From assembly GCA_021228405.1 (NCBI GenBank), contig JAJQRF010000011.1, forward strand, positions 62,001 to 126,000: a stretch of DNA of 64,000 nucleotides, read 5' to 3'. Source of the DNA: Pyrinomonadaceae bacterium. GTDB taxonomy: Bacteria; Acidobacteriota; Blastocatellia; Pyrinomonadales; Pyrinomonadaceae. Each line of letters begins with the position of its first letter. The first letter of the stretch is position 1. Positions 3,527 through 26,916 of the stretch are shown here, piece by piece. The position numbers and the translations under genes are program-made. The notes below the pieces were generated by a model. It did no database searches, had not been told where the DNA came from, and worked only from the letters and a program-made list of their open reading frames with translations.

Positions 3527-4024
3527 TCATTTTTTTTCAGGCGGTTTAAGATTGCTGTAGCCGTCCACCTGAAAACGCCATTTGCCGTCTTTTTCCCTGA
3601 CTACAACCGTCACGAATTTGCCCTGTCCGCTTCCTGCATCCTTGCCGTCTTTATACTGCCGGATCGTGTAAATGCCGACATCGTAAGCCAGATTTTTATC
3701 TACTTTACGCTGAAAAATTTGGAAAGAAATCGTCATCGTCCGTCCTTCCGTTTTGACCCAATCGAAAAACGATTTGAATGTCGGAATAATCGCCTCGCGC
3801 CCTTGCAGAATATTGTCATCAGGCGGCAAATACGCGGCTTTTTCCGTGTAAAGGTTCGCCACTTTTTCGACATCTAAGGTGCGGTAAGCCTCGCTAAACG
3901 CTCTGTAACTTGCGTCGATTTCCTTGTGTGCCGAAACCCCTTTTTCCAATATTAATTCGGAATTTTGTGCCTTAATGCTAATTGAAAATAACAATAATAA
4001 AGATAAAGATATAAGTGTTTTCAT
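3527..4024 (-). CDS. Secreted SnoaL/DUF4440-like (NTF2-fold) protein
   Basis: 165 residues with a clear signal peptide (MKTLISLSLLLLFSISIKAQ). The mature part has the NTF2-like pattern of an early helix (YRAFSEAYRTLDVEKVANLY), the phrase YLPPDDNILQGREAI, and late strands ending in GKWRFQVDGYSN, all typical of DUF4440/SnoaL-like proteins. Members of this fold are often small ligand binders or isomerase-like; no catalytic residue can be assigned. It follows the zinc-ribbon gene by 3 bp and has its own terminator, so it is probably the last gene of the run starting with the VWA gene. Confidence 0.75.
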   Translation of the reverse strand: MKTLISLSLLLLFSISIKAQNSELILEKGVSAHKEIDASYRAFSEAYRTLDVEKVANLYTEKAAYLPPDDNILQGREAIIPTFKSFFDWVKTEGRTMTISFQIFQRKVDKNLAYDVGIYTIRQYKDGKDAGSGQGKFVTVVVREKDGKWRFQVDGYSNLKPPEKK

Positions 4025-4027
4025 TTA

Positions 4028-4366
4028 TTATTCCTCGACTATTTTTCCGCAAGCAGCGCAAAAACTCGCTTGCGAAGTTCGCAAAGGCTTCCCGCAACTT
4101 TCGCAAGGTTCGCCATAAATTGAAATTCGGTGATGAATAATTGCATTGTGATTTGTTTCTATAAATTCTGTCAATTCTTCATATTTTTCGCACAAAGGTC
4201 GAAACCTTTCATTAATTGAACAGTTTTCCAAAGGCAAATCGTATTTTTGGCGAAATTCTTTCGTTGCTTTAATTCCGCCGCTGTATAAATCCGAAATCAC
4301 TTTAAATTCATCTTCATCGAGCATCGGCACTTCCATTTTGCAACGCCAACACCACATCATTTTCAT
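4028..4366 (-). CDS. Small zinc-ribbon protein, function unknown
   Basis: 112 residues. Two cysteine pairs are visible: CWRC near the N-terminus (residues 6-9), and CESCGKPLRTSQASFCAACG near the C-terminus, which reads as a rubredoxin-like zinc ribbon. The middle is helical and charged. There is no signal peptide, so it is cytoplasmic. It starts 1 bp after the VWA gene and ends 3 bp before the NTF2-like gene, so it is probably cotranscribed with both. I do not recognise a named family. Confidence 0.7.
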   Translation of the reverse strand: MKMMWCWRCKMEVPMLDEDEFKVISDLYSGGIKATKEFRQKYDLPLENCSINERFRPLCEKYEELTEFIETNHNAIIHHRISIYGEPCESCGKPLRTSQASFCAACGKIVEE

Positions 4367-4367
4367 A

Positions 4368-5693
4368 TTATTTTACGCGGCTTGTCCTTCGTTTCATAAA
4401 ATCCATCAAAACGAATTGTGTCAGATTGTTCGGGTTCGCAAAATACGCCTTGCCGCGGGTCATTGCCGACATTTGCTTGACGAATTCGACAAGGTAATAA
4501 TCATCGGCAAGCATAAACGTATTTATCATTATGTTTCCCTTGCGGCACGCCTGAACTTCCTTGAAAGTTTCCGCCATCACGAAGGGATCGTTGCCCATCG
4601 AGTTTTTATAAAGCAGACGTTTATCGTTTTTCACCTGCGAATAACGTCGATAATTGAAATATGCGGCGTTGTTCGTGTCGATGTAAGCGGCGGTCGGTTT
4701 GCCGTCGGTAATCATCACGATCTGCTTCATTTCCTTGTTTTGCGCGTTGAGAATGCGGCGCGCCAGCTTTAAGCCTTCAGCGGTGTTGGTGTGATACGGT
4801 CCGACCTGTGTCGTCGCCAATTTCGCAAGCGGCAACTCTTCCGCGCCGTCGTGGAAAAGCACGATCTTCAAAGAATCGCCCGGATATTGCGTGCGAATCA
4901 GATGCGCGAGCGCGAGCGCGACTTTTTTGGCGGGCGTAAATCTGTCTTCGCCGTAAAGAATCATCGAATGTGAACAATCGAGCATCACGACCGTCGCGCA
5001 GGATGATTGATAATCCTGCTGGTGAACGTATAAATCCTTGTATTCCAGATTGAGCGGAACGCCCAAACCTTCACGCGTGATCGCCGATAAAAGCGTCGCG
5101 TTGACATCAAGATTGATCGTGTCGCCGAATTCGTATTGTTTTGAACTGAGCGCGGCTTCGATTCCCGTGTCCAATTGCGGCGTTTCGTGGCGACCGATCG
5201 AAGATTTGCCCATCGAACCGAGCAATTTCTGCAAAGTCTTGTAACCGAGAAAATCCAAACCTTTTTCCGTTACCTGAAATTTGATGTTGCGCGGCATCGC
5301 TTCGCCGACCTCGCCTTTTCCGCCTTGTCCTTGCTGTTGCGGCGCGCGCGGCTGTTCGACTTCCTTAAGATCGAGATAACCTTCTTCGACCAATCTTTCG
5401 ATCAATTGATTAATTAATTCTTCGAGCAGAGAGCCTTTGAACTTGCCGTCGTTTTCATCGAGCATTTGCCGAATGTCTTGCTCGTTCAAAATTCCCTGTT
5501 CGAGCAAGGATTTCAAGATCGCCTGCCGAAGTGCGTCGAGCGAATCGTCGATTTCGTTGCGCTGGCGCGTCCACCAGTAATCTTCGTTATAGCCCGAATC
5601 GAGCAATGAATCGGACAACGACTGCATCAGTTCGCCGAGATTTACGCCGAAAACATCGAAGCCTTTAAATTTTGAATAGCGAATAAACTTCAT
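4368..5693 (-). CDS. VWA-domain protein (CoxE-like), partner of a MoxR-type ATPase
   Basis: 441 residues. The C-terminal half is a von Willebrand A domain with a MIDAS motif (DCSHS in [14 protein letters not shown]) and later TDGKPTAAY. The N-terminal half is charged and helical with a Gln-rich linker. ATG at 5693 is chosen over an upstream start because AAGGAG lies 8 bases before it. VWA proteins of this type act with AAA+ ATPases of the MoxR/ChlI class in metal insertion or protein remodelling; such an ATPase lies at 6889-8361. The exact client is unknown. Confidence 0.85.
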
Positions 5694-18446: not shown

Positions 18447-19427
18447 TTAATCTTCCTTGATTTCCTCGCGCACGATCTCTTCGGGTTGGGTTGCGGGTTT
18501 GCGAAAACGTAATCTTTTCCAGAAATAACGCAAAACGAGATAGATCGGTAAAAGAACCAACAGCACGAACGGTAGAATTGCGATCAGAAACGTGATAAAG
18601 CCGAGCACGAAGCTCATCGCAAAATCGAAACCGTTGCGGATGGAATCGGTCAGACGATAGAAAAATCCGCCCGAATTCGGCGTAAACGCGGTTGGCGTTT
18701 GCAGATGTATTCTGATCGTTGAAAGACTCGCCTGATTTTCGAGAAAACGCTTGCGACCTTCGATCTTTTCGATCTCGCCGCGCACTTCGGCAAGCTGTTT
18801 CTGCACGTTCAGCGCGTCTTCGACCGAATTTGCGCGTTTCATTATTTCGAGAAACTGTTCTTCGAGCGCACGTTTCGCCTTCAAACGCGCTTCGATGTCG
18901 ATAAATTCTTCGGTTACGTCCTGACCTTTGACCGTTTCGACGATCACGCGATTCGCGCTTTTACGGATTTCTTCGAGCGTTTCGGCAAATTTTTCCGCCG
19001 GAACGCGCACCGTCATCGTGACAATATCACGCGAAACGGCTTTCACATCGCGACTGCTTTGCGTCGATTCGACGACGAAACCGCCTTTGCTTTCGACAAT
19101 CGCAGAAATTTTCTTCTGATCTTCTTCGGGCGAATCAGTTTCAAGTTGAAGATCGGCGTTGCGGATGATTTTCCGTTCGACGGGTTTGACGGGTTCGGTC
19201 GGATTTTTATCGCCGGTTTCGAGCGAAACCTGATTTTGCGCGATCAATTTTTCGCTCGTATCTTCGCGTCCGCCGCCGCCGCCGCCCGTATTTCTCGCCA
19301 AATCGGGCTGACTGCTCGGCGCAGATGTTGAAATATCTTCGCTTTGCTGACTTTTTTCGGCACTTGCACAGGCGGCAAATATTACTGCCAGTAAAATAAG
19401 GACTGAAATTATTTTTGCTCTATTCAT
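18447..19427 (-). CDS. DUF4349 lipoprotein
   Basis: 326 residues. ATG at 19427 is chosen because GGAG precedes it and the lipobox (VIFAACAS) fits; a longer reading frame only runs into the repeat array. After a Gly/Ser-rich linker, residues about 90-270 match DUF4349 (VKPVERKIIRNADLQLE, VTMTVRVPAEKF, EEFIDIEARLKAKRALEEQF), with a coiled coil of VRGEIEKIEGRKRFLE type, then a membrane segment (FLIAILPFVLLVLLPIYLVL). Function of the family is unknown; it is envelope-located. Confidence 0.85.
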   Translation of the reverse strand: MNRAKIISVLILLAVIFAACASAEKSQQSEDISTSAPSSQPDLARNTGGGGGGREDTSEKLIAQNQVSLETGDKNPTEPVKPVERKIIRNADLQLETDSPEEDQKKISAIVESKGGFVVESTQSSRDVKAVSRDIVTMTVRVPAEKFAETLEEIRKSANRVIVETVKGQDVTEEFIDIEARLKAKRALEEQFLEIMKRANSVEDALNVQKQLAEVRGEIEKIEGRKRFLENQASLSTIRIHLQTPTAFTPNSGGFFYRLTDSIRNGFDFAMSFVLGFITFLIAILPFVLLVLLPIYLVLRYFWKRLRFRKPATQPEEIVREEIKED

Positions 19428-19460
19428 AATTTTCTCCGACGGAAATGCAGAAATCGTTTT

Positions 19461-19754
19461 TGCCCGCAAATAATCTTTTTTCGCCGGCAAATTTACTTTT
19501 TTCGCTCTCCGAGAATATTTATTTGCCGGCAAATAATATGTGTTTGCTGGCGGAGAAAGTTATTATGCTCTCCGGGAAAGTTCATTTGCCGGCAAATAAA
19601 CTCTGATTGCTCTCCGAGAATGATTTTTTGCTCTCAAAATATCTCTGTATGCTGGCGGAGAATGTTTATTTGCACTCTAAAGTGATTGGTTTGCGAGCGG
19701 AAAAACTTTCTCCGCCAGCAAACACATATTATTTGCGAGCGGATTTTGCTTTCC
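19461..19754. repeat. Tandem mosaic array, exact 21-bp period, 14 units
   Basis: This fills the 337-bp gap upstream of the DUF4349 gene; no gene lies in it. Anchoring on the G of (T/C)GC, units start at 19462, 19483, 19504, 19525, 19546, 19567, 19588, 19609, 19630, 19651, 19672, 19693, 19714 and 19735: every step is 21. Each unit has a 16-nt core of two half-words, for example TTTGCCGG+CAAATAAT, TTTGCTGG+CGGAGAAA and TTTGCTCT+CCGAGAAT, then about 5 AT-rich bases. Cores recur in both orientations. Confidence 0.93.
19532..19733. repeat. 30-nt perfect inverted repeat within the 21-bp array
   Basis: 19532-19561 and 19704-19733 are exact reverse complements over 30 nt, including the spacer bases on both sides of the core TTTGCTGGCGGAGAAA. 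Inversion or copying therefore acted on units with their spacers. The arms are 142 nt apart. Confidence 0.9.
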
Positions 19755-19764
19755 AAAAAACAAA

Positions 19765-20391
19765 TTAACCTGCTTTTTGGGCGACTTCCTTGAAGCTTTC
19801 ACCGCGAAACAGTGCGCGAATTCCATTGAATAATCGTTTGAAGGCGCGAAAAACCTTCGGCGTAAACCAGATGAAAAAGATCGTGAAAAGGATCAGGACA
19901 ATTGCAATGACGATCGGCGCGAAAACGGCAAGAATCGAACCGACAAAAGCGATCACGTCTTCGACGAGCGATAAAATCCAGTTTGAAACGGGTTCGGGCG
20001 AAAGATTCGCTCCGGCGCGAAGCGCGGCTTTCGTGCCGTGCGAAGAAAGAGCCAAACCGCCGCCGAGCAAAGTTGCGATCGTATGAACGCTCGTATCCAT
20101 CTCATTCGTCGCCGCATATGCGACGACCGCGCCCGCCGGAACGCGGATAAACGTGTGAACGACATCCCAAACGCTGTCAACGTATGGAATTTTGTCGGCG
20201 AAAAACTCGATGAGATAAAGCCCGCCCGCCACGCCGATGATCCACCAATTATCCAGAACATCCAATCCGCCGGGAAGCTTCGTAAAAGCGAATTTCTGCA
20301 AAATTCCCAGCACGGCAACCGTCGCATAAAGATTAATGCCCGATGTCCAAGCCGTTCCCAGAGCCAAACTCAATGTCGAAAACCATTCCAT
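19765..20391 (-). CDS. DUF4126 membrane protein
   Basis: 208 residues. ATG at 20391 is chosen for the strong AGGAGGAG site upstream; an earlier in-frame start lacks one. The N-terminus WFSTLSLALGTAWTSGINLY and the phrases GGLYLIEFFADKIPYVDSVWD and LSSHGTKAALRAGANLSPEP are typical of DUF4126. At least four hydrophobic stretches predict an inner-membrane protein, and the end is amphipathic. Function of the family is unknown. Confidence 0.88.
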   Translation of the reverse strand: MEWFSTLSLALGTAWTSGINLYATVAVLGILQKFAFTKLPGGLDVLDNWWIIGVAGGLYLIEFFADKIPYVDSVWDVVHTFIRVPAGAVVAYAATNEMDTSVHTIATLLGGGLALSSHGTKAALRAGANLSPEPVSNWILSLVEDVIAFVGSILAVFAPIVIAIVLILFTIFFIWFTPKVFRAFKRLFNGIRALFRGESFKEVAQKAG

Positions 20392-20533
20392 TCGATTCTC
20401 CTCCTGCTGCTCGAAATCAGCATAAAACAAAACGCTTTTTTGTCCGATTTGTTTTGAGTTTCAAACATTTAATCACAAAAGGCGGAAAATTAATAAATTC
20501 CCGCCTTAAAATTCCTGAATTCTTAACCGATTT

Positions 20534-22570
20534 CTAATTATTCGGCAACCCGAAATAAACCGGAGCATCCTGACTCGTTCCCAATGTAACACTCAATTGC
20601 GTGTTTCTATTTTCATATCCGCGCCAGGTATTATTCGACGGACGATAGATCGTAAAATCTGCGTTGATCGAATTGCGGTAAACAGGAACGGGAATATCAC
20701 CTGCCGTTCCCCATTGAATACCGATGGCGGAATTATCGACACTTCGCAAGACCCACCAAGTACCGTTGCGATAAACCGTTAAATCAGCTTTACCGTCGCC
20801 ATCATAATCCGCCGGAACGAGTTTATCGGTAGAAATTCCCCATTGTTGGCTGACAAAACCTCCATCCGAGCTTTTCAGGTAATACCAGTAACCGCTCGAC
20901 GGTCGGAAAACGCAGATGTCGGTTTTGCCGTCGCCGTCGTAATCGGCAGGAACGGGTTTGTCGCCGTTCGTTCCCCAATGAACGCCCAAAAATTGTTGCG
21001 CTTCGGAAGACCAGAAATACCAATCGCCGTTTGAGGGACGAAAAACGGCAATGTCGCTTTTCCCGCCGCCGTCATAATCGTTCGGGACGGCAATATCGCC
21101 CGTCGTTCCGAATTGTAAGGCAGTTAATGTTGAATTGGAGCTGTTAAGAACATACCAGGCACCTGTGCTGGTTCGGTAAACCGCGTAATCGGTTTTGCCG
21201 TCGCCGTCGAAATCTCCGGGCGCAGGAACGTCGCCCGACGCACCTGTTCCCCACTGAAAACTTCTGGCTGTTCCCTCGACATTGATGTAATTAGCATTTT
21301 TCGATGACCAAACTCCGTTAGTCGGATTCCACATCGTGAGATCGGAGTTTTCATTATCGTCAAAATCGAGCATTTTCGTTTCGCCGGATGCCTGACAAAC
21401 ATTTTCCTTTATCGTGAGCAATTTTTCGCCGAAAGCGTTGTAGTTATAAATCGGACTTGTGGTGCGTCCGTCATAGAAATCGTCCTTTCCGTCAGCATTG
21501 AAATCTTCAAATTTCCAGCCGAATGTCGTGAAACCGCTTGCCACCAGAGGCTTCGGGTAAACAGTTCGTGAAAATCCGCCCGCGCCGTTATTGATATGTG
21601 TCGCGTAGTCGTTAGTCCCAAATTCGACGACATCCAAGTTGCCGTCTCCGTTTAACTCTGCGGGAAGCAGAAAACTGCTGACGGCGGAAAGCGGCAGTTG
21701 TTGGAAAGTGCCATTCGCCTGACCGTAAAAAATACTCGTTCGGCTTAAAACATCGTCTTTGCCGTCGTTATTAAAATCTCTCACCGGATTTCGGAAAACT
21801 GTAATTTCTGCTGACGTTGCCGGTCCGACCTGAAAAACTCCGTTGCCCGTATTTCTAATCATCGTATAAGTGTTCGGACTTGGAGGAAAAATGATGTCTT
21901 TTCTTCCATCGCCATCGAAATCTCCGACGGCATTACTGGAAGGCGTGAAACCTGTCGTTATATTCGTTTTACTGCCGAACGTACCGTTGGAATTCTGCAA
22001 TTGGTATCTTAAAGTAAAACTGGAATTAATACTCACCGAATACACCCAGTCGAGTAAACTATCTCCATTTACATCAAAAAATCCGACGTTAGAAGTTGAA
22101 ACAAAGCCTCCGTCCGAATCGGTAAATGCCGGCGAAGCGACCAGAGTTGAGGTTCCGACATTGCGGTGAATTCGCATATCGCCGGGAGAGCCGTAAATCA
22201 GGTCAACTCTTCCGTCGGCATCCACGTCTTTCACCCAATATTCGCCGTCGCCTAAGATTGTTGTCGTATAAATTATCGGATTATTCCAATCCCAATAACC
22301 GTTCGGCTGGCTTGGATAAATCACAACGTCAAGCCTGAATGTAGTTTGATTTCCCCTGAAATTCCAAAAATCGGACCTGCCGTCTCCTGTCCAATCATCG
22401 AGTTTTGGTTCCCGGACAAAATTACTCGTGCCTAATTTGTTAATAACATTGTAATCAGACTTGAAATAATTACCGCATTGAGCCGATGCCGAAAGCGCGG
22501 AAACAATAAAAACCGAACTGAAAACGAAAAGCCAAACGAAACGCTGCAAGATAAGATTATTCTCTTTCAT
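20534..22570 (-). CDS. Secreted FG-GAP/VCBS repeat protein B
   Basis: 678 residues, paralogue of the gene at 16197-18263. The signal peptide (LFVFSSVFIVSALSASAQ) is followed by CGNYFKSDYN, matching CGIFFKPSHR of the other copy. Repeats with calcium loops (DFDGDGKTD, DYDGDGKTD, DYDGDGKAD) fill the protein, and it ends PVYFGLPNN. ATG at 22570 has an AGGGGA site upstream. The two copies flank the DUF4349 and DUF4126 genes on the same strand. It is likely surface-exposed or secreted. Confidence 0.87.
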   Translation of the reverse strand: MKENNLILQRFVWLFVFSSVFIVSALSASAQCGNYFKSDYNVINKLGTSNFVREPKLDDWTGDGRSDFWNFRGNQTTFRLDVVIYPSQPNGYWDWNNPIIYTTTILGDGEYWVKDVDADGRVDLIYGSPGDMRIHRNVGTSTLVASPAFTDSDGGFVSTSNVGFFDVNGDSLLDWVYSVSINSSFTLRYQLQNSNGTFGSKTNITTGFTPSSNAVGDFDGDGRKDIIFPPSPNTYTMIRNTGNGVFQVGPATSAEITVFRNPVRDFNNDGKDDVLSRTSIFYGQANGTFQQLPLSAVSSFLLPAELNGDGNLDVVEFGTNDYATHINNGAGGFSRTVYPKPLVASGFTTFGWKFEDFNADGKDDFYDGRTTSPIYNYNAFGEKLLTIKENVCQASGETKMLDFDDNENSDLTMWNPTNGVWSSKNANYINVEGTARSFQWGTGASGDVPAPGDFDGDGKTDYAVYRTSTGAWYVLNSSNSTLTALQFGTTGDIAVPNDYDGGGKSDIAVFRPSNGDWYFWSSEAQQFLGVHWGTNGDKPVPADYDGDGKTDICVFRPSSGYWYYLKSSDGGFVSQQWGISTDKLVPADYDGDGKADLTVYRNGTWWVLRSVDNSAIGIQWGTAGDIPVPVYRNSINADFTIYRPSNNTWRGYENRNTQLSVTLGTSQDAPVYFGLPNN

Positions 22571-22669
22571 AAAATTCCCCTGATAAGATCAACTTTGCGG
22601 AAATTATAGTTTAAGTTCCGCTTCAAATACAATAAATTTCCCTCAAACACGATTGAATTGAGGGGTAAG

Positions 22670-23890
22670 TTAACGAGAACCGAGGGAGTAAAGTTGCGTT
22701 TCGTGATTGTAAGTTTTCCAATCGAACCAATAATCTTTTATCGCCTTAATTTTCCTGAGTTGCTTGCCTGTCATTTCGCCTCTGACGGCTTTGCCCGAAA
22801 AATCCCAAACACTGGCGGTTTCCGCGTCGACGATCTCTTTAGTGTCGGGTTTGATGAAAAATTCGAGCGTTTTGCCGTCAATTTCCCTTTCAAAACCGCG
22901 CACCGATTTCTGGTCTTCGGCGAGAATGATAATGATTTTTTTACCGCCGACCGTATCGAGAATCGGGTTTTGTTTCTCGATTGCCGAAAACGGATAAGCT
23001 TTTGAATTGCCGTTTATTTCCAAACCGACGACAAGCGTTCGCGGTTCGAGGGTTTTGTCCAATTCCTTTGAAATCCTGACGGGCATTTTTGCGACTTTGG
23101 TTTCCCAATCCGCTTCATATTCGTTTTCGGCAAGCTTTTCTTCATCGGGACGAAGAACGCGACCGTTCGGATTTTCCCGTTTCCAAATGCCGTAGGAAAT
23201 TTCGTCGAAATCGACCTCGGCGAGTTTCTGTCCTTTCAGTTTTCCCTGAATAGCTTCGCCTGAAATCTGTTGCCACCACGAACCCGTTTCCTCGTCGCGC
23301 ATTATGAAATTCTGGTTATTGATTCCCGCCAGTTGAAATTTTAACGTCTGCCCGTTCACGACGGACTGCCACACAATTCCAGTGTGGCAGAGCGTTCAGT
23401 AAGTCGCTGTGATCGGCATTCCGCCGACGACATCCTGCACGATGTGGTGATACGCCATCTGCCGAACGGGAAAAGCCGCCGCATCGTCATTAACCTTAAC
23501 GGCTAAAACCATCTCGTCATCCGCGACGAAATCGGTTTCAGAAACTTTTGCAAATCGCGCATTTTCGAGCGGATTGAACATCCACTCAAAATGATTCTGC
23601 CGCGCAAACCAAGTGAAACCGAAAATAATCAAAAGCGGCACGATCAAAGCAATTTTGCCATACCAGCGTTTCGATTTTTTCCAGATAATGACGGCTAAAC
23701 CGACCGCCGCGATCGAAAGAACAATCGTTAAGATCGGCGACCAGCTCCGTAAAAAATAGGAAATTTCCAGTTGCTTTTCGGTCTGCGCCGAAAATGGTTT
23801 GATGAACCAAACGGGTGTGAAAACCATCGCCGCAACGATCGCCGTTATCAAAAACAGGATCAACCAAGCCGTTTTATAACCGAGTTTCAT
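22670..23890 (-). CDS. DUF3179 membrane protein with in-frame UGA (predicted selenoprotein)
   Basis: Read through the UGA at 23398-23396, this is one 406-residue protein. Residues 1-95 hold three membrane segments. The DUF3179 domain follows (AAAFPVRQMAYHHIVQDVVGG). The conserved CxxC site reads ITATY-U-TLCHTGIVWQ, with selenocysteine at 165 in place of the first Cys. The frame is preserved on both sides with no indel, and the downstream part (FVGLEING-type segment VVGLEINGNSKAYPFSAI) is a second copy of the same pattern. A SECIS-like hairpin follows. Function of DUF3179 is unknown; UxxC suggests a redox role. A nonsense pseudogene is the alternative. Confidence 0.85.
23366..23390 (-). promoter_or_regulatory. 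SECIS-like hairpin for the DUF3179 UGA
   Basis: On the minus strand, five bases after UGA, CTGCCACAC pairs perfectly with GTGTGGCAG around the loop TGGAATT. The 9-bp stem lies entirely in codons, and GG in the apical loop is about 16 nt from the UGA. This is the placement and form of bacterial SECIS elements read by SelB. Confidence 0.8.
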
Positions 23891-23974
23891 AAAATTGATT
23901 TCAGCAAGAATATTTTACCTTTTCGATTATCACAAGCCGTTTCAGGATTTTTTGCCCTAAAAAGTCCTGATCTT

Positions 23975-25327
23975 TTACTCTTCTTCTTCCGCGCCGTCGC
24001 GTTTCACGCCGAATTTTTCAAGCCGATACTGCAACGTTCTGAACGTCAACCCCAACAATTTCGCCGATTTCGTGATGTTGTTGTCGGTGCGCTCCATCGC
24101 CTGCATTATCAAACTTCGTTCGACATCTTCAAAATTCACGCCTTCGGGCGGAAGTTTGAAAAGCGAATCGCCGCCAGCGGTCGTCGCCGCCGAAACGCCT
24201 TGATTAAGCATTTCGGGCGGCAGGTCTTCGAGCGTGATCGTGTCGTTTTCACAAAGTAAAACGGCGCGTTCGATGGCAGATTCGAGCTGGCGAACATTGC
24301 CCGGGTAAAAATAATTTTCGAGCAATTTCTTCGCGCCCGAATCCAACGTGACCTTTCGACTCGTGCCGCGTGTGTGTTTTTTCAGGAAATAATCGAGCAA
24401 AACAGGAATGTCGCCGCGCCGTTCGCGCAAAGCGGGAAGCTCGATGCTGAGAACATTCAGACGATAATACAAATCTTCGCGGAAACGTTTTTCCGTCGTC
24501 ATCGCCAGCAAATCACGGTTTGTCGCCGCGACAACGCGCACATCGACGTTTATTTCACGCGTTCCGCCGACGCGCCGAATTTGTTTTTCCTGCAAAGCGC
24601 GAAGCAATTTTGCCTGCAACGAAATGTCGAGTTCGCCGATTTCATCCAAAAACAAAGTTCCGCCGTCGGCAATTTCAAAAAGTCCTTTTTTCTCGCCGAC
24701 TGCGCCCGTAAAACTTCCCTTTTCGTGCCCGAAAAGTTCCGATTCGAGCAAATTTTCGTTGATCGCGGCGCAGTTTACGGCTTGAAAAACTTCGCTTGCA
24801 CGCAGTGAATTATTATGAATCGAACGCGCGATCAACTCTTTTCCCGTTCCCGATTCGCCGCGAATCAAAACCGTCGAATTAGACTTCGCAACCTTCAAGA
24901 TCAGCTTTTTCACCTTGTCCATTTCCGGCGATTCGGAAACGATTTCCGTGTCGAGCGTCGAAAGCTTGTTCAGCGCGCGCGAAACCGTGTCGAGCAATTT
25001 TTCGCTGTCGTAAGGCTTCTGCAAATAGTCGAACGCGCCGAGCCGCAACGCATCGACCGCCGAATCGACCGAACCGTGTGCCGTTAAAAGTATGACAATA
25101 ATGGATTTGTCAAAATCCGTCAGTTGTTTGAGCAAATCCAAACCGCTCATTCCCGTCATTTTCAGGTCGGTCAAAACCAGATCGAAATGCCTGTCGGCAA
25201 CAAATTTCATCGCCGCTTCGCCCGAGCTCGCCGTCGTCACATCGTAACCTTCGCCCGACAAGATCATTTCCAAAATTTCACGTTGCGATTTTTCATCGTC
25301 AACAACTAAGATTGATTTTCTACTCAT
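23975..25327 (-). CDS. NtrC-family sigma-54 response regulator
   Basis: 450 residues. Receiver domain at 1-120 with phospho-acceptor Asp54 (VLTDLKMTG). AAA+ domain at about 135-370 with Walker A GESGTGKE (157-164) and the sigma-54 contact loop GSFTGA (204-209; Ser replaces the common Ala). The C-terminal Fis-type helix-turn-helix is NNITKSAKLLGLTFRTLQYRL. It activates sigma-54 promoters when phosphorylated, most probably by the kinase encoded just upstream at 25432-26916. Confidence 0.95.
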   Translation of the reverse strand: MSRKSILVVDDEKSQREILEMILSGEGYDVTTASSGEAAMKFVADRHFDLVLTDLKMTGMSGLDLLKQLTDFDKSIIVILLTAHGSVDSAVDALRLGAFDYLQKPYDSEKLLDTVSRALNKLSTLDTEIVSESPEMDKVKKLILKVAKSNSTVLIRGESGTGKELIARSIHNNSLRASEVFQAVNCAAINENLLESELFGHEKGSFTGAVGEKKGLFEIADGGTLFLDEIGELDISLQAKLLRALQEKQIRRVGGTREINVDVRVVAATNRDLLAMTTEKRFREDLYYRLNVLSIELPALRERRGDIPVLLDYFLKKHTRGTSRKVTLDSGAKKLLENYFYPGNVRQLESAIERAVLLCENDTITLEDLPPEMLNQGVSAATTAGGDSLFKLPPEGVNFEDVERSLIMQAMERTDNNITKSAKLLGLTFRTLQYRLEKFGVKRDGAEEEE

Positions 25328-25339
25328 TTATTTTTTTCG

Positions 25340-25427
25340 GAAACAACGATTTATACAGATTTTCGCGGATTATTTTTAAAAACAGGATTTAATAAATCTG
25401 TGTAAATCCGCGTCAATCGTTGTTTCA
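25340..25427. repeat. Intergenic palindrome, GAAACAACGAT family
   Basis: GAAACAACGATTTATACAGA on the left and the complementary AATCCGCGTCAATCGTTGTTTC on the right bracket an about 30-nt centre. It fills the 104-bp gap between the regulator and kinase genes. The same outer ends occur at 32147-32224. Confidence 0.75.
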
Positions 25428-25431
25428 AACA

Positions 25432-26916
25432 TTAAACTTTCGGTAATTTTACTACAAAAACCGTTCCTTCGTTCAATTCCGATTCGACCGAGATTTCACC
25501 GTTGTGAACGTCGATGATTTTTTGGACAATCGCCAACCCCAAACCCGTTCCGGTTTCTTTGGTCGAAAAATACGGCTCGAATATCTTTTCGAGGTTTTCG
25601 GGCGGAATCCCGTTGCCCGTGTCGCGTATCTCTATTTTGACGAATTGTCCGTCGGGCGAAATTTTCACGTTCAGATGTCCGCCTTTCGCCTCCATCGAGT
25701 GAACCGCGTTAATGAAAAGATTATTGAAAACCGACCGTAAAAATTCCGCATCAGCCAACATTTTCGGCACGTTTTCTTCTTCGATCAGACTTATCTTAAT
25801 GTCGCACTCGGCGGCTTGCGCCTCAACGATCCGCAGAGAATCTTCGACGACTTTCCTCGCATCGGTCGGCTGTAGATCGGCTTTCGCCGGACGCGAATAA
25901 TTTAAAAAATCCGTGATCTGATTATTGATCCTGCCGACTTCCGCTTTTAACTGCGCCGTCAATTTTTCAAAAGTTTCACGCTTCGTTTCGTCTTCGGGTT
26001 TGAATTTATTACGCAAATGATCGAGCGATAAGTTTATATAATTGAGCGGATTGCGGATTTCGTGAGCGATGGCGGAAGCAAGTCTGCCGACGACCGCCGA
26101 TTTTTCCGCTTCCTGAAATTTCGCTTCGAGTTCGCGGTTTTTTGCCAGTTCGTCCGTCATCCGGTTAAACTGCGAAGCGAGTTCGCCCATTTCATCCGAA
26201 CGGTTTGCGCCTTCGACGCGCACACAAAGGTCGCCGTTGGCGATCTGCCGCGCCGCATAGGAAAGATTGGCGATTGGTCGCGTAAAACGCCAGACGAGCC
26301 AGAAAGTTATGAGCGTCGAAACGAGCAAAATGCCGAGCGTATAGATGAGCGGACGCGCGGCGCGGCTGGCGGCGGCTTTTTTATCGTTTTCCAGAATCAC
26401 CATCGCATACCAACGTCCCTGGCTGGTCGTGATCGGAATGGCATACGCTTCACCGTTGGTTTCCTTGTTTGCCGCAGTTTTGCGGTTCGGAAATTTTTCG
26501 AGGTCCTCGCCGAGTCTTTTACCTTCCATAAGCGGCGGCAGATTTTGCAGTTCGCTCAATTTCAAATATTTTATTTCGCCGTCGCTTCCGGTCGAAGGCA
26601 GATATTCGCCCGTCAGGTTATCGGTCACATCCCAATTATTGTTAATGATAATGATGTCCCTGATGCGTTCGGTCGTCTTCTCGTCATAAAACGGCTGACC
26701 TTCGCGTTTGACTAAATCCTGTAAATATTCGCTCGACGTGATGCTGTTGAAACCGAGCGTGATTCCGGCGGCGAGTGCCTTCGATTGCGCTTCGAGAATC
26801 TGGTTATTCTCTTCCTGTGTGCCGAGATTCAGATAATATTGAAAACTCAGCGTGGCGATCAGCATAAACGCTAAGATAATCAAAAGCTTACCGCGAAATG
26901 TATTGAAAAACCTCAT
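25432..26916 (-). CDS. Membrane sensor histidine kinase
   Basis: 494 residues. Membrane segments at about 11-29 and 190-209 bracket a periplasmic sensor region of about 160 residues. A HAMP domain follows ([20 protein letters not shown]), then the phosphoacceptor box with His285 ([20 protein letters not shown]), and the ATPase domain with N box [27 protein letters not shown] and [10 protein letters not shown]. The form is like AtoS/ZraS, which pair with NtrC-type regulators. The stimulus is unknown. Confidence 0.94.

Follow-up and report, generated by a model that had tools for sequence, protein, structure and literature searches.

Selenoproteins with a thioredoxin fold carry a UxxC redox motif, and their Cys homologues use CxxC. 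The DUF3179 gene described here has the UxxC motif in common with them but differs in its domain, which is predicted to be a Rieske-like beta domain. The listing of DUF3179 among the selenoproteins is reportedly traced to Zhang and Gladyshev (2007) and a symbiont of Olavius algarvensis. DUF3179 is catalogued as a prokaryotic selenoprotein family with the motif UxxC/T (PMC9312934, PMC13188914). The preliminary description of the window (the whole 64-kb stretch of DNA that was analysed) had proposed a DUF3179 selenoprotein; the Sec reading is strongly supported by the machinery, the Sec/Cys alternation and the conserved hairpin, although a Sec form is no first for this family, being already catalogued. 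The window gene resembles the catalogued members in its Pfam domain, in the placement of the predicted Sec in the same kind of motif (UxxC) and in its bacterial SECIS-type element. It differs from them in belonging to a subfamily that is anchored in the membrane by three predicted helices; most members of this subfamily are from Acidobacteriota, and two are Gemmatimonadota MAGs.

The gene and the codon at issue lie on the reverse strand.

22670..23890, minus strand: putative DUF3179 selenoprotein gene, from ATG at 23890 to TAA at 22672-22670, 406 aa, residue 165 being the predicted Sec (read-through translation, PF11376, dN/dS)
23396..23398, minus strand: UGA codon predicted to be read as selenocysteine, residue 165 in Y-U-T-L-C (UGA kept in the orthologues of relatives)

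The start codon, the TGA at 23398-23396 and the terminal TAA share one common frame, in which this TGA is the single in-frame one. Residue 165 stands in the context ATY-U-TLCHTG, so that U165-T-L-C168 forms a UxxC motif. The Pfam DUF3179 model (PF11376) matches residues 108-398 unbroken across the UGA (E value 6e-69; 233 bits against a curated cut-off of 27), and the continuity of this match shows that there is no indel, as had been claimed from the reading frame and homology; a search of NCBIfam with the protein assigned no family. A screen of the window for read-through frames that stay open for 80 or more codons on either side of a UGA gave 13, and the DUF3179 gene was the sole survivor once frames overlapping other genes by at least 40 % were dropped.

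The UGA is conserved well beyond the window. In the closest 60 genomes, the window copy and the orthologues covering the codon in 12 of 12 relatives (a count that excludes a few short fragments) each contain a single stop, which is this TGA, and none of the signs of decay named in the preliminary description (other stops, frameshifts or a lost downstream half) was seen there. Among the best 80 DUF3179 matches in named genomes, codon 165 is UGA in 76, including L188, which was read from its sequence since its motif ends in Phe, and TGC in four, namely three Edaphobacter lichenicola strains and one MAG. UGA and TGC thus alternate at this column, in keeping with the earlier view that the UGA occupies the first Cys of a Y-C-x-L-C motif. 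All of these matches are from Acidobacteriota except three MAGs: L151 and L170, which are Gemmatimonadota, and one with no phylum in its title. From these neighbours, the organism of the window would belong to the Pyrinomonadaceae or lie close to them. Across the survey, the 55 UGA-bearing DUF3179 loci have the UGA at the same motif position. Values of dN/dS are as low upstream of the UGA as downstream of it, and those of the downstream half (0.07-0.16) indicate purifying selection. The TGA does interrupt the frame, as it would if a nonsense mutation or sequencing error had broken the gene and left its downstream half a pseudogene; however, this is refuted by the recurrence of the same TGA in dozens of independent genomes across genera, and both the constraint on the downstream half and the frozen synonymous sites near the UGA speak against it, leaving this explanation with virtually no credence.

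The source genome encodes the components needed for selenocysteine insertion, all four of which the preliminary description had proposed to look for. We detected a tRNA-Sec with a UCA anticodon (69.9 bits; ARAGORN reports it as tRNA-SeC(tca)) together with matches to SelB (397 bits), SelA (556 bits) and SelD (347 bits). In 56 of 60 relatives, the SelB score exceeds the cut-off of the family. In the window subfamily, SelA was found in 20/20 Sec-form genomes vs 0/10 Cys-form genomes of the phylum draw. SelB was likewise not found in these ten Cys-form genomes, of which the named ones are Edaphobacter, and neither was a strong tRNA-Sec match, the 51 bits of G179 being close to what ordinary tRNAs score. 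In other subfamilies, two genomes with a UGA form (G102 and G354) returned no SelA match; as tRNA-Sec is present in both and SelB in G102, these are likely assembly gaps. Genome-wide reassignment of UGA, or readthrough by a near-cognate tRNA that inserts another amino acid, with the hairpin acting as a general readthrough signal, would likewise keep the frame open. We regard this as very unlikely, since TGA terminates 8 of the 47 long ORFs in the window, the full Sec machinery is present and the UGA/Cys alternation goes with whether a genome has SelA and SelB.

As a separate observation, the SelD of the source genome (G000:C7:566309-567229, locus L043) is itself a Sec form, with a UGA in SCAGUVAK at what is apparently the catalytic position.

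The Cys-form loci of Edaphobacter and relatives (L089-L095, L184, L189, L193 and L194) are nested within the Sec clade on the tree, with SH-aLRT values of 96-99 on the enclosing branches, implying a Sec-to-Cys reversal in the window subfamily. With the Cys clade inside the Sec clade, the pattern therefore points to one Sec-to-Cys change rather than ten independent ones. Such reversals are called rare in bacteria by a 2026 review, which names FdhA and SelD (PMC13188914).

Immediately 3′ of the UGA lies the hairpin that the preliminary description had singled out.

23366..23390, minus strand: bacterial SECIS-type hairpin, 9-bp stem and 7-nt loop with GG (sequence, folding energy, kept pairs, frozen codons)

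A 5-nt spacer (ACGCT) is followed at 23390-23366 by CUGCCACAC-(UGGAAUU)-GUGUGGCAG, with nine perfect pairs, exactly as had been reported: a perfect stem and GG-containing loop formed from codons 5 nt past the UGA. The hairpin alone folds at -15.6 kcal/mol, and a 53-nt stretch containing it at -21.9 kcal/mol (z -2.9), an energy reached by 1 of 200 shuffles. It had also been argued that a random nonsense mutation would not create such a hairpin. Taken singly, this hairpin is less improbable than that implies, as recoding the window gene synonymously 5000 times reached the same energy in 125 cases (p about 0.025): the amino acid sequence itself favours pairing, because the Leu-Cys-His-Thr codons are almost able to pair throughout with those for Val-Trp-Gln. 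The window hairpin by itself is thus suggestive only as evidence of a SECIS, and the part of the argument that stands is conservation across genomes, which we regard as decisive for reading the hairpin as a genuine SECIS.

This conservation is apparent at the level of individual codons. In 83 distinct UGA-form sequences of the subfamily, the His-Thr-Gly-Leu-Val codons in the stem and loop are CAC ACC GGU CUG GUG at 92-100 %, whereas just outside the hairpin (+10 to +17) the commonest codon has a share of 35-76 %, and GGU makes up only 12 % of Gly codons elsewhere in UGA-form genes. At the same five hairpin places in the Cys forms (ten sequences), the top codon holds a 40-70 % share. The six inner pairs are kept in 72-73 of 73 distinct sequences, and one compensatory change in the core stem, from C-G to U-A, was made by two synonymous substitutions; the three outer pairs of the window stem are far less common among relatives. 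Over all surveyed DUF3179 subfamilies, a hairpin of -7.5 kcal/mol or lower is present at 49/55 UGA loci vs 3/36 Cys loci, counts that are uncorrected for shared ancestry. A possible fossil SECIS in the Cys forms was considered and dropped, as the hairpin remnants do not exceed what the protein sequence permits. In one UGA-form relative, L173 (match 4001-5326), one core pair is broken and an alternative hairpin (CGGGUCUGGUCUGGACCCG) lies slightly downstream, possibly representing a shifted SECIS.

Published criteria for bacterial SECIS elements comprise a stem of 4-16 bp, a loop of 3-9 nt, a G within the first two loop positions and an energy of -7.5 kcal/mol or lower, while a UGA-to-apical-loop spacing of 16-37 nt is stated for most, not all, elements (PMC13188914). 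The window hairpin lies within these bounds for stem, loop, G position and energy, and each computational check suggested in the preliminary description gave a positive result; its spacing of 14 nt (15 nt in most orthologues) is slightly under the published range. An Rfam scan of the 64-kb window returned nothing at gathering thresholds. The hairpin resembles the E. coli fdhF SECIS in being a coding-region hairpin just past the UGA with an apical loop containing GG, and the loop GGUCU is common to fdhF and many relatives of the window gene; it differs in that the UGA-to-loop distance is about 17 nt in fdhF vs about 14-15 nt here, and the loop of the window copy is UGGAAUU. Conservation of the hairpin also bears on whether two separate genes are present, the first stopping at the UGA and the second restarting at the GTG at 23374, 8 codons past it. 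Such a split would cut the invariant UTLCHTG motif from the first DUF3179 repeat, and the hairpin is conserved with the UGA but not maintained in Cys forms, where the ORF is continuous, making this arrangement extremely improbable.

The predicted protein comprises a membrane anchor and two repeats.

23600..23866, minus strand: three predicted membrane helices, about residues 9-29, 51-71 and 78-97 (hydropathy and helices of the AlphaFold2 model)
23168..23515, minus strand: DUF3179 repeat 1, residues 126-241, with predicted Sec165-x-x-Cys168-His169 (repeat alignment; predicted Rieske-like fold)
22691..23035, minus strand: DUF3179 repeat 2, residues 286-400, without the redox motif (aligned to repeat 1)

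Helices 2 and 3 are joined by a basic loop, WKKSKRWYGK, which should lie inside according to the positive-inside rule and would thus place the DUF3179 domain outside the cytoplasm. DUF3179 is an internal tandem duplication (BLASTP E value 7e-11; hhalign 99.8 % between the repeats), in which the UTLC positions hold Cys or Sec in repeat 1 only and neither in repeat 2; His149, Cys168 and His169 are invariant. Comparison by sequence with solved structures gave none that is similar (best E value 0.47). The AlphaFold2 model is confident (pLDDT 92.8 for the whole protein and 92.5 for repeat 1 alone), and the best fold matches of both repeats, and of repeat 1 modelled alone, are Rieske domains. For the domain-only model, 50 of the 50 entries listed were Rieske (Z 9.2 to 7.1), although a Z near 8 can reflect a common arrangement and the Foldseek matches of the models are weak, with E values not below 0.01. 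That other folds do not appear among the structure matches does not count against them. The repeats thus resemble the Rieske [2Fe-2S] proteins (PF00355) in predicted fold but lack the cluster motif CxH..CxxH and show no significant profile similarity, the hhalign probability against Rieske sequence profiles being only 0.5 % for repeat 1 and 26 % for repeat 2. Because the motif is absent and the profiles do not match, we treat the resemblance as one of predicted fold and not of family membership. Hand alignment of UTLCH to the first Rieske box was tried and dropped, as it received no support from hhalign and the aligned ranges put Sec before the cluster loops; by these ranges, the model would suggest a Sec some 12 residues ahead of the first Rieske ligand.

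These results bear on the possibility that Sec is inserted, but that its site serves as a ligand to a metal or an iron-sulfur centre of a Rieske-like domain instead of acting as a thiol-type catalyst. The fold match of both repeats and the three invariant residues (two His and one Cys) speak for such a site; however, the missing cluster motif, the poor profile comparison, the probable position of Sec ahead of the first ligand and the loss of the second Cys in many Sec forms argue against it, and we consider a metal site unlikely. A redox centre formed by Sec165 and Cys168 is preferred here.

The loss of the second Cys is evident in other DUF3179 subfamilies, where 19 of 29 Sec loci lack it (UPLA, UPLT, UPLV and UPID motifs; counted by eye, with one pair duplicated), vs 33 of 36 Cys loci in which CxxC is kept (motif lists, counted by eye). 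Acidobacteriota Sec forms of this kind are L054, L056, L065, L067, L071, L075, L097, L101-L104, L108 and L110-L115. Sec alone seems to suffice in these subfamilies, suggesting that Sec may be the attacking residue and the second Cys an optional resolving one. The SECIS loop in the forms that lack the second Cys is mostly about 20-21 nt from the UGA, vs 14-15 nt in the window subfamily.

The UGA and the hairpin are maintained together under selection, the machinery is complete and Cys takes the place of Sec in some relatives. Reading these lines of evidence jointly, we consider it very probable that the locus encodes a genuine selenoprotein, with SelB-dependent insertion of Sec165, a three-helix anchor, a DUF3179 domain that is probably extracytoplasmic, a putative Sec165-Cys168 redox centre, and Cys forms in genomes that lack Sec genes. 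With the components present, SelB would recognise the hairpin 3′ of the UGA and bring Sec-tRNA-Sec, allowing the ribosome to place selenocysteine at residue 165 and carry on to residue 406. The three N-terminal helices would anchor the product in the membrane, with the two-repeat domain probably outside the cytoplasm. In repeat 1, Sec165 and Cys168 would form the redox centre, most likely cycling via a selenenylsulfide, and repeat 2 would be a structural partner with no redox site. From the UxxC motif and by family analogy, we infer a biochemical redox function for the DUF3179 protein, which may be a thiol- or peroxide-type oxidoreductase activity at the membrane. Edaphobacter and relatives, which lack Sec genes, have TGC at this codon, and the hairpin is no longer maintained there. 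A wider interpretation, possible but on balance doubtful, is that DUF3179 is a duplicated Rieske-like fold with selenothiol redox chemistry in place of the iron-sulfur cluster. The protein would then be an extracytoplasmic selenoenzyme retained widely in Acidobacteriota, with Sec as the older state of the subfamily and Cys derived after loss of the Sec system.

Relative to the catalogued family, the analysis seems to add a large membrane-anchored, Acidobacteriota-centred subfamily, the Sec-to-Cys reversal together with the missing Sec machinery, the prediction of tandem repeats with a Rieske-like fold, and the UxxA/V/D variants. Most Acidobacteriota members of the window type appear to need selenium, and gene prediction that treats UGA as a stop would break such DUF3179 genes in two. 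Through the clade that has exchanged Sec for Cys and has no Sec genes, natural Sec/Cys pairs are available with which the contribution of Sec could be studied, and the cultured Edaphobacter species make the Cys form open to direct biochemistry.

Finally, the surroundings of the gene were compared. No conserved neighbour hinting at a substrate was found outside the close relatives, and none of the ORFs in the other loci under comparison grouped with the FG-GAP repeat protein at 20534-22570. Since a histidine kinase, an NtrC-type regulator and DUF4126 accompany the gene only in close relatives, no operon partner was assigned. The arrangement at window 18450-26916, with histidine kinase, NtrC-type regulator, DUF3179 and DUF4126 in that order, is largely retained among those relatives.
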